Below are positions 43,129 through 47,375 of a stretch of 64,000 nucleotides of DNA, in pieces. The first letter of the stretch is position 1. Every line of letters starts with the position of its first letter. A model generated the notes under the pieces. That model did not search any database. It was not told the origin of the DNA and saw only the letters and a program-made list of their open reading frames with translations. Made by a program: the position numbers and the translations under genes. Source of the stretch: Elusimicrobiota bacterium (GTDB taxonomy: Bacteria > Elusimicrobiota > Elusimicrobia > UBA1565 > UBA9628); contig JACPFR010000018.1 of NCBI GenBank assembly GCA_016182905.1, forward strand, positions 62,001 to 126,000. The letters are read 5' to 3'.

Positions 43129-44343
43129 CTGCTCCGCCTCGCCTGGCGCAACGTCTGGCGCAACCGCCGCCGCAGCCTGATCAACGTGGCCGCGATGGGC
43201 TTCGGCCTGGCCGCGATCATGCTCGGCCAGAGCATGATCCGCTCCCTTCAGATCCAGCTCGTCGAAAAGGCGACGGGCTCGATCACGGGGCACGTGCGCG
43301 TCCAGCGCAGCGACGTCGACGAGTCCAAGTTCCCCGACAAGTTCATGCCCGACCCCGAGCCGGCCGCGAAGGTCCTCGACGCCGACCCCCGGGTCGCGAT
43401 CTGGGGCCGGCGCATCCAGATGACCGGCCTCGTGTCCGCGCCGAGCGCGTCCCTGGGCGCGCTGATCTGCGCCGTCGAGCCCGACCGGGAGAAGAAGCTC
43501 ACCGACATGTCCTCCTACATCAAGGAGGGGACCTATCTCGAGACGGACGGCAAGGGCATCGTCATGGGCCGCAAGATCGCCAACCGCCTCGACGTCCGCC
43601 TCGGGGAGAAGGTCGTCATCATGGCCCAGGCCGCGGACGGCTCGATGGGCGCCGAGGCCTTCCGCCTCGTCGGGATCCAGGTCACCGGCTCGGAGTCCTT
43701 CGACGGCCAGATCGTCTGGATCCCGCTGAAGGCCATGCAGGAGATGCTCGGCCGCCCCGGCCAGGCCAACCAGCTGGCGGCGCGCGTCGTCGACATCGAG
43801 GCCGCCGAGGCGGTCGCCGCCGACGTCGACGCGCGGCTGCCGCCGGGCAACATCCGCGCGATCAGCTGGAAGAAGATCGACCGGGAGATCATCGGCATCC
43901 AGGCCTTCCAGAACGGCATCCTGACCGTCGTGCTGTTCATCGTGTTCGCCATCGTGGCGCTGGGCATCCTCAACACCCAGCTGATGAGCCTGTTCGAGCG
44001 CGTGCGGGAGTTCGGCGTGCTGATGGCCATCGGCGCCCGCCCGCGCTGGATCGTGCGGCTGATCCTGGCCGAGTCGCTCGTCCTCGGCCTCGTCGGGACC
44101 TTGCTCGGCCTGACGCTCGGGGCCGCGATGATCGCGTACTTCGGCCGCAACGGCCTTCATCTTCCCGTCGGCGAGGCCTTCTCCTACTTCCTGCCTTTCC
44201 CGTCGGTGATCTACCTCGTCCCCGCGTGGCGCATGCACGCCTTCGCCTGCTTCTCCGTCTTCCTGATCACCTTGCTGGCCTCCTTGCCCCCGGCGCTGCG
44301 CGCCGGGCGGCTGAAGCCGGCGGAGGCGCTGCGCCATGTCTAA
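43129..44343 (+). CDS. FtsX/LolE-like ABC transporter permease (probable CTG start)
   Basis: 404 aa. N-terminal LRLAWRNVWRNRRRSLINV is the standard cytoplasmic start of MacB/LolC-type permeases, followed by a helix, a large periplasmic domain and three C-terminal helices (VVLFIVFAIVALGILNTQLM, LGLVGTLLGLTLGAAM, HAFACFSVFLITLLASLPPAL). No ATG/GTG/TTG precedes that conserved N-terminus; CTG at 43129 does and is taken as start. ATG 43186 would remove it. The ATPase gene overlaps its end. Confidence 0.82.
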   Translation: MLRLAWRNVWRNRRRSLINVAAMGFGLAAIMLGQSMIRSLQIQLVEKATGSITGHVRVQRSDVDESKFPDKFMPDPEPAAKVLDADPRVAIWGRRIQMTGLVSAPSASLGALICAVEPDREKKLTDMSSYIKEGTYLETDGKGIVMGRKIANRLDVRLGEKVVIMAQAADGSMGAEAFRLVGIQVTGSESFDGQIVWIPLKAMQEMLGRPGQANQLAARVVDIEAAEAVAADVDARLPPGNIRAISWKKIDREIIGIQAFQNGILTVVLFIVFAIVALGILNTQLMSLFERVREFGVLMAIGARPRWIVRLILAESLVLGLVGTLLGLTLGAAMIAYFGRNGLHLPVGEAFSYFLPFPSVIYLVPAWRMHAFACFSVFLITLLASLPPALRAGRLKPAEALRHV

Positions 44344-45025
44344 GCTCGTCGAGGTCTCCAACCTCCACAAGGTGTACCCCGGCGGCTCGAAGGTCGCCGC
44401 GCTCAAGGGCATCGACCTCGTGATCGCGCGGGGGGAGTTCACCGCGCTGGCCGGCCCGTCGGGCTCGGGCAAGTCCACCTTGCTCAATATGATCGGGACG
44501 CTGGACCGGCCGACGAAGGGGACGGTCAGCTACGACGGCCACGTCGTCTCGTCGCTGGGGGCCGATCCCCTTTCAGATTTCCGCCTGCGCTCGCTCGGCT
44601 TCGTGTTCCAGGCCTACAACCTCATCCCGGTCCTGACCGCCGTCGAGAACGTCGAGTATCCTCTCGTGCTGCAGGGCATGGACGCGGCCGAACGCCGCGC
44701 GCTCGCGGAGGAGGCCCTGGCCTGGGTCGGGCTCGAGACCTACGCCGAGCGCCGCCCCGACCTGCTCTCCGGCGGCCAGCAGCAGCGCGTCGCCGTCGCC
44801 CGCGCGATCGTCACGCGCCCGTCGCTCGTGCTCGCCGACGAGCCGACGGCCAACCTCGACTCCAAGACCGGCGCCCAGCTCTTAGACCTCATGGAAGGAT
44901 TGAATCGCGACCACGGCATCACCTTCCTGTTCTCGAGCCACGACGGCGCGGTCCTCGAGCGCGCCCGACGCGTCGTCCGCCTCCAGGACGGCGAGCTTCT
45001 CTCCGACGAAACGCGAACGGATTGA
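44336..45025 (+). CDS. LolD/MacB-type ABC transporter ATPase
   Basis: 229 aa ABC ATPase: Walker A GPSGSGKSTLLN, Q-loop FVFQAYNLIPVLTAVENV, signature LLSGGQQQRVAVARA, Walker B SLVLADEPTANLD, H-loop FSSHD. The LIPVLTAVENV and ADEPTANLD forms are those of the LolD/MacB/FtsE group. It pairs with the upstream permease and LolA-like protein in a lipoprotein or lipid trafficking system. Its stop codon overlaps the TTG start of the barrel gene, exactly where the inverted-repeat element begins. Confidence 0.92.
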   Translation: MSKLVEVSNLHKVYPGGSKVAALKGIDLVIARGEFTALAGPSGSGKSTLLNMIGTLDRPTKGTVSYDGHVVSSLGADPLSDFRLRSLGFVFQAYNLIPVLTAVENVEYPLVLQGMDAAERRALAEEALAWVGLETYAERRPDLLSGGQQQRVAVARAIVTRPSLVLADEPTANLDSKTGAQLLDLMEGLNRDHGITFLFSSHDGAVLERARRVVRLQDGELLSDETRTD

Positions 45026-46221
45026 ACCACAAAGACACAAAGACACGAAGGACGAGCGGCAAGAGGGTTAACGTCGACGTAAACCTTCTCTTCCGTTCTT
45101 CGTGTCTTTGTGCCTTTGTGGTTCTTTCGTTTCCGTCGCCGGCCTCGGCCGGCGTGAAGGCCGGCGGCTACCTCAAGGACTTCTGGCAGTACTCCCATTC
45201 CGCCCTCGACGGCCGCGCCTACAACCTCAACACCGCCCGCGCGCGCCTGACCCTCGACGCGGAGAAGTCGGCGCTCAAGGCGCACGTCGATTTCGACCAG
45301 CAGGTCGCCGCCGGCTCCTTCTTCCGCACCACGGAGTTCCGGCAGTTCGGCTACGCGCCGCCCAAGCCCTGGCTCGACATGGAGCACACCGTCTCGACGG
45401 GCACGACCAACGGCTACGGCGTCGGCGCCTACCGCGCCTGGGTCGGCGTCGAGGACGAGAGCGGCGTCGTCCGCGCCGGCCGCCAGCGCATCGCCTGGGG
45501 CAGCGGCAAGCTCTGGAACCCGACCGACGTCCTGAACCCCTACGACCCGACGACCGTCGAGCGCGACGAGCGCCGCGGCGTGGACGCCCTGTACGGCCGC
45601 GCGGGAGTCGGTTCCCTCGGCCAGGCCGAGCTGGCCTGGGCGCCGGGCGACTATTGGGTCGATCACGCCCTACTCGCGCGAGGGCGCGCGAACTGGGAGG
45701 GCTGGGACGCCGCGCTGATGGGCGGCAAGATCCCGGGCTCGACGGCGTCGTTCGTCATCGGCGGCGACTTCGCCGGCGCCGTCCTCGAGGGCACCGCCCA
45801 CGGGGAGGTCGCCTGGTTCAGCCCCGAGACGCGGACGCCGTATTGGAAAGCCGGCCTGGGCTACGATTACAACTTCCCGTCGGGCACGGCGGTCCTCGTC
45901 GAGGTCTACCACGCCGGCAACGGCCAGGCCGACCCGCGGCGGTACGACTACGCGTCCCTGCGCGCGGGCAAGGAGCAGGGCGTCGCCCGGAACTACGCGG
46001 GCGCGACCTTCACCAAGGACCTGCACACCTTGCTCAAGCTCGAGTGCGCCGCCCTCGTCAACGCCGACGACGGCTCCACGCTCGCCTACCCGAGCCTGTC
46101 CTGGAACGCGCTCCCCGACCTGTGGCTGACCGCCGCGTGGCGGCGCTTCGGCGGCGACGCGCTCGACGAATTCGGGCGCCAGCCCAACGCCGCCGTGCTG
46201 ACCGCGCAATATTGGTTTTAA
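45022..46221 (+). CDS. Outer-membrane beta-barrel protein with repeat-encoded signal peptide
   Basis: 399 aa from TTG 45022 (TTGA overlap with the ATPase stop). Residues 1-~35 (NHKDTKTRRTSGK..., then LLFRSSCLCAFVV) are translated from a ~101-bp inverted-repeat element; they continue into SFPSPASA|G to give a basic n-region, hydrophobic core and AxA cleavage site. The mature protein has beta-strands throughout and ends AVLTAQYWF with terminal Phe. It lies downstream of LolA-like, permease and ATPase genes, so it may be the barrel those genes serve. No other start codon would give a signal peptide. Confidence 0.75.
   Translation: MNHKDTKTRRTSGKRVNVDVNLLFRSSCLCAFVVLSFPSPASAGVKAGGYLKDFWQYSHSALDGRAYNLNTARARLTLDAEKSALKAHVDFDQQVAAGSFFRTTEFRQFGYAPPKPWLDMEHTVSTGTTNGYGVGAYRAWVGVEDESGVVRAGRQRIAWGSGKLWNPTDVLNPYDPTTVERDERRGVDALYGRAGVGSLGQAELAWAPGDYWVDHALLARGRANWEGWDAALMGGKIPGSTASFVIGGDFAGAVLEGTAHGEVAWFSPETRTPYWKAGLGYDYNFPSGTAVLVEVYHAGNGQADPRRYDYASLRAGKEQGVARNYAGATFTKDLHTLLKLECAALVNADDGSTLAYPSLSWNALPDLWLTAAWRRFGGDALDEFGRQPNAAVLTAQYWF
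45024..45124. repeat. Inverted-repeat (MITE/palindromic) element, KDTKTRR type
   Basis: Terminal 27-nt arms 45024-45050 and 45098-45124 are inverse complements with one mismatch (outer sequence GAACCACAAAGACACAAAGA). The interior is itself nearly palindromic around ACGTCGACGT. Both strands translate to related peptides (NHKxTKTRR...VDVN...CLCxFVV). Repeats with this peptide signature are scattered through many bacterial genomes. Confidence 0.85.
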
Positions 46222-46235
46222 GCTAGACTGTCGCC

Positions 46236-47375
46236 ATGACCGCCATCGCCCTCGCCGCCCTCCTGGCCTCGTCCTCCGCCGCCGCGCCGGGGCCGAAGGC
46301 CCCCGAGCTCAAGATCGCCAAGGTCTTCAACGCCCCGGTCTCCGAGGTCAAGAGCCTCGCGAGCCTCAAGGGCAAGGTCGTCTTCGTCGAGTTCTGGGCC
46401 ACCTGGTGCGCGCCGTGCGTCGCGGGCGTCCCGCGCACGAACCGCCTGATCGACGCGCTCAAAGGGGAGCCCGTCGTCTTCCTCTCCGTGACCGACGAAC
46501 CCGCGGACCAGATCGCGGCGTTCCTCAAGACCCACGAGTTCAAGTCCTGGGTCGGCGTGGACGAGGCGAGGTCGTCGCTCAAGGCCTACAAGGTCCGCGG
46601 CCGTCCCGACGGCTACCTGATCGGCAAGGACGGGACCTTGCTCGCGCGGATCTTTCCCGATTCCCTCAAGGAAAGCGACGTGCGCGACGCGATCGCCGGC
46701 CGCTTCACGCCGGTCCCGGTCAAGTTCGGCGGCGGCGAAGGACCCGCCCTCCCGGCGGCGTCCGGCCGGACCCTCTTCGAGGTCCTGATCTCCTCGGCCG
46801 CGGGCGAGCCTTCCATGAGCCGCGGCGACGGCATGCTCGAGGGCGGGGGGCTTCCGTTCTCCGCCCTCCTCGCCTGGATCTGGGACGTCGAGGACGAGCA
46901 GGTCGTCGTCGACGCCCCGGCGCCCGACTCCTTCAACTTCCGGCTCCGGACGCCGCCGGAGGGCTTCGAGCGAGGCCGCGAGCTGCTGAAGCAGGCGGTG
47001 CAGGCCGCCTTCGCCGTGCGCGTGGAGCCCATGATCAAGGAGACCGACGTCTTCCTGCTGACCCTGTCCACGGAGGCGGGCGCGCCGCGTCCGCAGCTCG
47101 GGGACCCGGCGCTCAAGCCCGGGATCATGGCCTCCGGCGGCGGCCGCCTTCTCGGCCGGTCGACGATGGCCCGTTTCGCGAAGGCGCTCTGGATGGGCTC
47201 TCCCAAGCCGGTCATCGACGCCACCGGCCTCGACGGGCTGTATTTCCTCGACCTCGAGTGGAAGCGCCGGGACGACGCCGCCCGCGACCGCGCGCTCGCG
47301 GCTCACGGGCTGAAGCTCGTCCCCGGACGGCGCGAGGTGGAATTCCTGCGGGTCCTGCCCGCCAAGAAGGACTAG
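46236..47375 (+). CDS. TlpA-like thioredoxin fused to DUF3738
   Basis: 379 aa with a signal peptide (ALAALLASSSAAA). Residues ~25-160 form a thioredoxin/TlpA domain with the redox motif FWATWCAPCVAGVPRT. Residues ~170-375 match DUF3738 (TIGR03435 type), ending DGLYFLDLEWKR...GLKLVPGRREVEFLRV. The protein should be exported and may reduce or rearrange envelope disulfides. TAGACT lies 6 nt before the ATG. The next genes are DsbD-like and another thioredoxin-like protein, a redox cluster. Confidence 0.85.
   Translation: MTAIALAALLASSSAAAPGPKAPELKIAKVFNAPVSEVKSLASLKGKVVFVEFWATWCAPCVAGVPRTNRLIDALKGEPVVFLSVTDEPADQIAAFLKTHEFKSWVGVDEARSSLKAYKVRGRPDGYLIGKDGTLLARIFPDSLKESDVRDAIAGRFTPVPVKFGGGEGPALPAASGRTLFEVLISSAAGEPSMSRGDGMLEGGGLPFSALLAWIWDVEDEQVVVDAPAPDSFNFRLRTPPEGFERGRELLKQAVQAAFAVRVEPMIKETDVFLLTLSTEAGAPRPQLGDPALKPGIMASGGGRLLGRSTMARFAKALWMGSPKPVIDATGLDGLYFLDLEWKRRDDAARDRALAAHGLKLVPGRREVEFLRVLPAKKD

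Follow-up and report, generated by a model that had tools for sequence, protein, structure and literature searches.

Can a short dispersed repeat supply both the start codon and the export signal of a gene at which it lands? A 64,000-nucleotide (nt) stretch of an Elusimicrobiota bacterium genome (GenBank assembly GCA_016182905.1, contig JACPFR010000018.1, positions 62,001 to 126,000, forward strand; hereafter the window) raises this question. In it a palindromic repeat element of about 100 nt lies between a gene for an ABC transporter ATPase and a gene for a porin-like protein, and an initial annotation proposed that the repeat supplies the start region and signal peptide of the latter. Our analysis makes it very likely that the palindrome displaced the porin gene's own start codon and signal peptide and now encodes both, and that it did likewise at other envelope genes. 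This reading draws on before-and-after sequence, reading frame, recurrence and purifying selection. The genome of the window, G000, is a draft of 3.98 Mb in 63 contigs; related genomes are given as G001 and so on. The features of the locus, in window positions, are listed here.

45024 to 45124, no strand: palindromic repeat element, from an inverted-repeat search and an opposite-strand self-match; one of 43 places examined in G000
45015 to 45054, + strand: left inverted-repeat arm, which translates from 45022 as the basic n-region NHKDTKTRRT..
45062 to 45089, no strand: central palindrome around AACGTCGACGTAAACC, from the inverted-repeat search
45094 to 45133, + strand: right inverted-repeat arm, coding in the porin frame for the hydrophobic core ..SSCLCAFVVLSF
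45006 to 45008, + strand: ACG at the site of the putative ancestral porin start codon, from an alignment read by eye; ATG in G003, G007 and others
45022 to 45024, + strand: predicted TTG start, overlapping the ATPase stop (TTGA); no other ATG, GTG or TTG of this open frame yields a signal peptide
45022 to 45150, + strand: predicted signal peptide MNHKDTKTRRTSGKRVNVDVNLLFRSSCLCAFVVLSFPSPASA, element-encoded, 43 codons, from translation and a start-codon scan; same length in the G009 orthologue
45151 to 46218 (stop 46219-46221), + strand: mature porin-like protein with C-terminal Phe; Porin_4 match under the cut-off; ratio of nonsynonymous to synonymous substitution (dN/dS) 0.145 against G009
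44336 to 45025, + strand: open reading frame (ORF) of the LolD-type ABC ATPase upstream of the porin (ABC_tran, 117.4 bits); stop TGA 45023-45025
43186 to 44343, + strand: ORF of an FtsX/MacB-type ABC permease (FtsX 60.0 bits, MacB_PCD 45.5 bits), a context gene

The porin ORF (45022-46221) was confirmed as a product of 399 amino acids counted from TTG 45022 and ending in Phe. Upstream of this TTG, 226 codons stay open in the porin frame. Before Gly44 the frame offers two codons of the ATG/GTG/TTG type, TTG 45022 and GTG 45118, and a start at the latter leaves the leader MVLSFPSPASA and nothing more, in agreement with the earlier claim that no other start gives a signal peptide. The leader read from TTG 45022 has a net charge of +5, a core of 2.76 (10-residue Kyte-Doolittle mean) and the junction ASA/G (a slash marks the predicted junction with the mature part), and it resembles the native leaders of orthologues. 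By our own rule it would qualify as a Sec type I signal, with a basic n-region, a hydrophobic core and small residues at -3 and -1. Initiation at TTG 45022, Sec export and cleavage of the porin are predicted.

The nature of the mature protein is less firm. The initial annotation called it an outer-membrane beta-barrel, and the C-terminal Phe is indeed present; the Porin_4 match reached 22.9 bits with a cut-off of 27 and was seen for two of the 8 aligned members, one of them that of the window. There was no relative in PDB at E 0.1 and no NCBIfam family. An AlphaFold model built from 8 aligned sequences was discarded, with a mean confidence score (pLDDT) of 27.2 at which the strands from residue 44 onward are uninformative. 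The Porin_4 match gives the beta-barrel label weak support.

Of the 58 genomes searched, 37 (G000 among them) gave porin matches. The 5' ends were examined at 18 loci (L030-L047): 16 belong to the genus, counting G000, and two (G028 and G029) to the family. Both arms were present at two of these loci, in G000 and G009. Three others each had one arm-like 9-mer with a mismatch, which we took as chance. Seven element-free orthologues of the same genus (G001, G003, G006, G007, G008, G011 and G014) have an ordinary signal peptide and the same mature start; the native signal of G003 reads MRPGLASVLALLLAAPASA/GVKAGGYLKDFW (mature start GVKAGGY). The ATPase gene (its LolD-type label is that of the initial annotation) also precedes the porin in relatives, and the native porin ATG overlaps its end in all six element-free loci computed (all but G006). 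In the window the order is ATPase end, element, old cleavage site; the native core is gone and the mature protein is kept. The change from ATG to ACG at 45006-45008, window versus relatives, is silent for the ATPase. Because the seven element-free orthologues have a native signal and the same mature protein, the alignments support the view that the element took over the ancestral porin signal while the old cleavage site persisted. The initial annotation had read the junction in this way and named repeat-free orthologues with the same N-terminus as the contrary evidence to look for; all seven differ from the window in their signal peptide. In G009 an element of another arm subtype lies in the same place and in frame, and the signal is also 43 codons long.

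A false join made at the repeat in this metagenome-assembled genome is a highly improbable source of the arrangement. The draft is in 63 contigs and assemblies fail at repeats, but both flanks of the junction match relatives in the aligned cases, a second genome, G009, likewise carries an element where the ATPase and porin genes meet, and the element is merely about 100 bp long. The conserved upstream and downstream neighbours also argue against an assembly error as the source of the start.

The opposite-strand self-match of the element spans 101 nt (45024-45124), directly behind the ATPase gene as originally described. Its inverted ends are real and longer than the 27 nt first given: the arms, 45015-45054 and 45094-45133, run 40 nt each and are 85% complementary. 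As RNA the element folds at -79 kcal/mol (z = -8.9), and none of 200 shuffles folded equally well. The arm pattern with at most 2 mismatches gave 45 + 40 matches in G000 and 0 + 1 for a reversed control; the element is therefore a dispersed repeat and not a chance sequence. Its length of about 100 nt, 40-nt terminal inverted repeats and many dispersed copies fit a miniature inverted-repeat transposable element (MITE). Genes were called around 43 element or half-element places in 42 G000 loci, with coding potential seeded with four genes from the locus. The five weakest single 2-mismatch arm matches (C3:7074, C18:45188, C21:139, C48:28273 and C50:52862) were left out of the 43, and the single-arm places examined may include chance matches, such as L076 and the intragenic L094. 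At six aligned genes (five whole elements and one half-element) native DNA was replaced and not cleanly interrupted, so a target duplication is unreadable.

Comparisons with known repeats gave no family for the element. Rfam returned merely hairpin look-alikes (MIR6462, mir-1270) far under gathering scores, and there was no match to a plasmid collection at E 1e-5. Repetitive extragenic palindromic (REP) elements with a REP-associated tyrosine transposase (RAYT) are described, in the available text of one source, as 20-40 bp palindromes with a GTAG or CGTC head (PMC3733652). Five Y1_Tnp (REP-type) transposase ORFs are present in G000 (L201-L205, on C16, C25 and C12, three of them sharing one contig). 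In a search confined to this transposase family, none of the five loci of about 3.3 kb held an arm match with at most 1 mismatch. With these unarmed loci, a length of about 100 nt and termini (consensus around TGAACCACAAAG) that have no conserved head, a REP/RAYT origin was rejected. The GxxExxY protein family was also weighed as a partner of the element, but the papers turned up on it had, to judge by title, no bearing on this.

The element may still act as REP-like hairpins do, in RNA or DNA at gene ends, in messenger stability, termination or coupling, with signal coding a tolerated by-product and no selective role for the element. We consider this somewhat probable. It is compatible with replacement of the porin signal at this locus and opposes just the idea that export is the element's purpose. 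The hairpin is strong, most copies lie outside genes, and a stop codon lies within 50 nt of 35 of the 43 elements, of which 24 are in tandem, 12 in convergent and 5 in divergent settings and 2 at locus edges. Some arm changes are also two-sided. Across four pairs of copies in G000 and G009, arm pairs showed 10 both-sided changes, 10 one-sided changes that kept pairing and 12 broken pairs. Among same-site copies, L030/L031, L099/L216 and L070/L220 have arms altered on both sides between the two genomes. These changes are real in places and a modest signal, and they may reflect change that preserves the structure, conversion of one arm by the other or insertions that occurred separately. A role as a hairpin leaves unexplained, however, the hairpin-less half-elements that persist as signal remnants in the Skp gene of G000 and G003, a TPR gene of G006 and two genes of G015.

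The initial annotation suggested a genome search for copies at gene 5' ends, and this found five further genes in G000. The six genes with a signal core encoded by an element or half-element are those for the porin, a lipoprotein, two TPR proteins, a DsbH-like protein and an OmpH/Skp-like protein. The lipoprotein (C1) reads ..SWCLGVFVVIPFVSGC/SFGRLKPG in G000 versus the native MRRALAVAVAAGLLGAC/SFGRLKPG in G003, and by eye the lipobox is FVSGC/SFG in L095 (G000) versus LGAC/SFG in the native orthologues L102 and L103; neither Pfam nor NCBIfam has a family for this protein. The first TPR protein (C53) reads ..VLCVFVSLWFILAVAVLPSSVRA/EKTEPG. Its relatives in G003, G007 and G009 are each a single open frame with a native core and an upstream domain that we take, from its motifs, to be RdgB/HAM1-like. 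In these loci (L122-L124; G003, G009 and G007, respectively) the two domains are joined by a hydrophobic stretch, and in G000 (L096) the element splits the frame into two genes. The DsbH-like (DUF255) thioredoxin (C5) has an element-coded core, and its G007 orthologue has a hydrophobic stretch. The second TPR protein (C6) has the native signal MRTSLLALLLALAPVSAHA/GG in G003; in G000 the native ATG-Arg-Thr remains and its frame continues through the element, and an ATG inside the element would yield the more usual MPSTLKPFVLCAFVSLWFILSVQPARA. The OmpH/Skp-like protein (C49) reads MKSTRLFVSLCLCGSFVLSSVPARA/IEL from a half-element common to G000 and G003. Other species have native signals for it, as relatives do for the lipoprotein and the second TPR protein.

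Similar cases were seen outside G000. In G006 a half-element encodes, by eye, the core of the same TPR protein as C53, and in G008 a decayed one may have this role. Half-elements in G015 encode the putative signal of a HEAT-repeat lipoprotein, ..LFVSLCLCGLPFLSAC/SEV (lipobox LSAC/SEV in L207, by eye), and that of an SBP_bac_5 protein, MNIKPRRLASWCLCGLFLPASA/Q, read from a TTG. With a lipobox Cys at the mature junction, two fused genes (L095 and L207) would have type II lipoprotein signals. Judged by sequence, the palindrome family is recurrently co-opted as predicted signal peptides at several envelope genes of this genus. One further candidate, L088 with its G009 orthologue L219, was dropped as a signal case; it has a native core with a GTG start downstream of the element.

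The half-elements of Skp (G000, G003), TPR (G006, perhaps decayed in G008) and the two G015 genes suggest another route, in which signals came mainly from the right arm alone, by short template switches or partial copies and not by whole insertion followed by deletion. The replacement of native DNA, instead of its simple interruption, also favours this route, but in G000 the elements at the porin, the lipoprotein, the DsbH-like gene and both TPR genes are complete and have both arms, and we regard this route as doubtful for the family.

The association with exported proteins was surveyed at 61 element places in 60 loci (42 from G000 and 18 from relatives), with 46 facing gene 5' ends in all. 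A gene was classed as a fusion when it starts in or reads through the element and any start codon further on would lie too close to the conserved domain for a signal peptide to fit between them; at L207 and L211, TTGs at the element end would leave just a few residues. Own signals beginning after the element were counted against the fusion class (L098, L071, L073, L074/L214, L076, L080 and L089, and likewise L088/L219). All 8 fused genes looked exported, versus 10 of the 38 other facing genes (Fisher p = 1.7e-4), and removal of five G009 duplicates gave 8/8 versus 8/33 (p = 1.3e-4); both classes were assigned by eye with the hypothesis known, and export was judged by eye and by a rule of our own, which weakens these counts.

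The repeat is intrinsically signal-like. Among 192 readings (32 full-length copies in six frames, not independent), 73 passed the crude rule of a basic n-region followed by a hydrophobic core, versus 35 of 1920 for dinucleotide shuffles (1.8%) and 152 of 9000 for stretches taken at random from the window, and 31 of the 32 copies had at least one signal-like reading. Reverse-strand readings were among those that passed, as expected from the proposal that the opposite strand encodes a similar peptide; together with the five further G000 cases, the survey supports the idea that either orientation could work. At 28 of 79 arm termini an ATG (23) or TTG (5) lies in frame with NHKDTK, compared with a background of 2.6% for ATG, TTG and GTG. 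The hydrophobic cores of 11 element-coded signals ranged from 1.9 to 3.0, and those of 10 native signals from 2.6 to 3.1.

The fused genes bear on whether the insertion instead destroyed the signal, with a fortuitous frame through the element and a porin gene that is a pseudogene or makes a non-exported product. The long and unusual n-region, the weak TTG start and the strong hairpin over the start would fit such damage. However, the mature parts of the six compared genes contain no stop codons, dN/dS lies between 0.123 and 0.311, and recurrence is confined to exported-looking proteins (8/8); we find this explanation improbable. The porin remains under purifying selection, with a dN/dS of 0.145 between the element carriers G000 and G009, 0.162 for G003-G007, the sole element-free pair compared, and 0.134-0.210 for four mixed pairs of carrier and element-free genomes. 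Between G000 and G003, dN/dS was 0.123 for the lipoprotein, 0.148 for the C53 TPR protein, 0.185 for the C6 TPR protein and 0.223 for Skp. The DsbH-like gene was higher, at 0.311 between G000 and G007.

The exact arm pattern occurred in 8 of 340 Elusimicrobiota genomes, all of one genus, and in none of the other 332. There were 27 + 27 exact arm matches (54) in G000, one in its sister G003 and 5-12, by pattern, in G009. By the exact pattern, the element underwent a burst in G000 relative to G003. G003 and G006 have a single exact match each, the Skp half-element and the TPR half-element, respectively; degenerate copies could be missing from these counts. A tree of six genes gave ((G000,G003),(G009,G007)) with support of 1.00 and 0.79, and the porin gene tree placed G000 weakly with G009 (0.65).

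Several observations weigh against replacement and co-option of signals by the element. The porin element is present in G000 and G009 and absent in G003, although G003 is the partner of G000 in the six-gene tree; to reconcile the two, one must assume recombination, a loss or two separate insertions. TTG is generally a weak start, no clear Shine-Dalgarno site was seen by eye at the porin start, and the -79 kcal/mol hairpin over the start region could hinder initiation. Whole-element n-regions are long (about 20-40 amino acids) and contain acidic residues, and the crude n-region charge of the G009 porin signal is 0. Several of the other fusions offer a choice of in-frame start codons, within the element or ahead of it. 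The DsbH-like orthologues L142 (G007) and L143 (G008) have a signal-like N-terminus with an ATG, GTG or TTG at no sensible place, and the native gene of these genomes perhaps uses a rare start codon.

How might the replacement have come about? A MITE-like dispersed palindrome would have inserted right behind the ATPase stop codon, and insertion with the loss of about 35 nt (by eye) would have removed the start and signal of the next operon gene, that of the porin. Because the elements sit just behind stop codons, in tight operons they would hit the start of the next gene. The element would now provide a TTG start coupled to the upstream stop by the TTGA overlap, the left arm becoming the basic n-region and the right arm the hydrophobic core, with the old c-region and cleavage site retained. 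In several frames and in either orientation, the arm repeat ACAAAGNCACNAAG translates into peptides rich in Lys and Arg and its complement into peptides rich in Phe, Val, Leu and Cys, and for this reason insertion into a signal-peptide region could be survivable. A cytosolic gene should be disabled by an insertion at its start, and loss of such insertions would explain the bias towards exported genes. A bolder proposal, which we put forward tentatively and hold to be somewhat less likely true than false, is that the family is a portable export-signal cassette, with start codons at its edges and arms serving as n-region and core. In this form it would have repeatedly overwritten envelope-gene signals in one genus, for both signal peptidases, with signal copies outlasting the family, and it could also make the product of a cytosolic ORF an exported protein.

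Downstream of the porin, the next gene (46236-47375) joins a thioredoxin/AhpC-TSA domain and DUF3738 in one protein, with a start that looks signal-like by eye.

The literature searched, which mostly excluded subscription papers, gave one clear precedent. In the available text of the reports, the Yersinia palindromic repeat RU-2/YPAL encodes a predicted signal in YPO1552 (Delihas 2007, PMC2759123; PMC2229807), homologues of YPO1552 in other genera have unrelated predicted signals (Delihas 2007, PMC2759123), and YPO2495 was also assigned a predicted signal by SignalP with probability 0.722 (Delihas 2007). As there described, that case concerns mainly one gene, is SignalP-based and has no element-free orthologue aligned at the junction. 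In contrast, the present family, here compared with RU-2 by description, covers six genes of a single genome and both types of cleavage, and was studied with before-and-after alignments and a survey of reading frames. The Rickettsia palindromic elements (Ogata et al.) are repeats of about 100-150 bp that are fused in frame and translated in many conserved protein genes, and were neutral or slightly harmful in one tested enzyme, gmk, according to the parts of the sources available (PMC2229807, PMC10969869). By description they are set apart from the present element, which would form a start and export signal in a genus of a different phylum, Elusimicrobiota. The enterobacterial repetitive intergenic consensus (ERIC/RU-1) and other bacterial MITEs are summarized, in the available text of a review, as short, multi-copy, mostly intergenic inverted repeats with some ORF fusions and some hydrophobic frames (PMC10969869); 'signal peptide' occurs 0 times in its main text. 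A study of signal-peptide gain and loss in Enterobacterales, in its available text, found no transposable elements near N-termini with ISEScan and judged gain by random prepending unlikely (PMC5952966). Here, instead, replacement would be by a repeat that ISEScan, by its title a tool for insertion sequence (IS) elements, would presumably miss. Within this search no recurrent replacement of signals by a palindromic repeat was found, and none in Elusimicrobiota. The recurrence and the before-and-after alignments are new as far as searched, next to a single comparable published case.

The gain and exchange of signal peptides are not well understood, and this locus and its sister cases provide concrete before-and-after examples. 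A repeat this short may escape standard IS finders, and gene callers may miss or mis-start the genes, so that such takeovers could be more frequent than is now recognized. These cases suggest that spreading 'junk' DNA can turn into a working part of a protein, and they point to a survival rule for insertions at gene starts, which would be tolerated solely by genes that need a signal.
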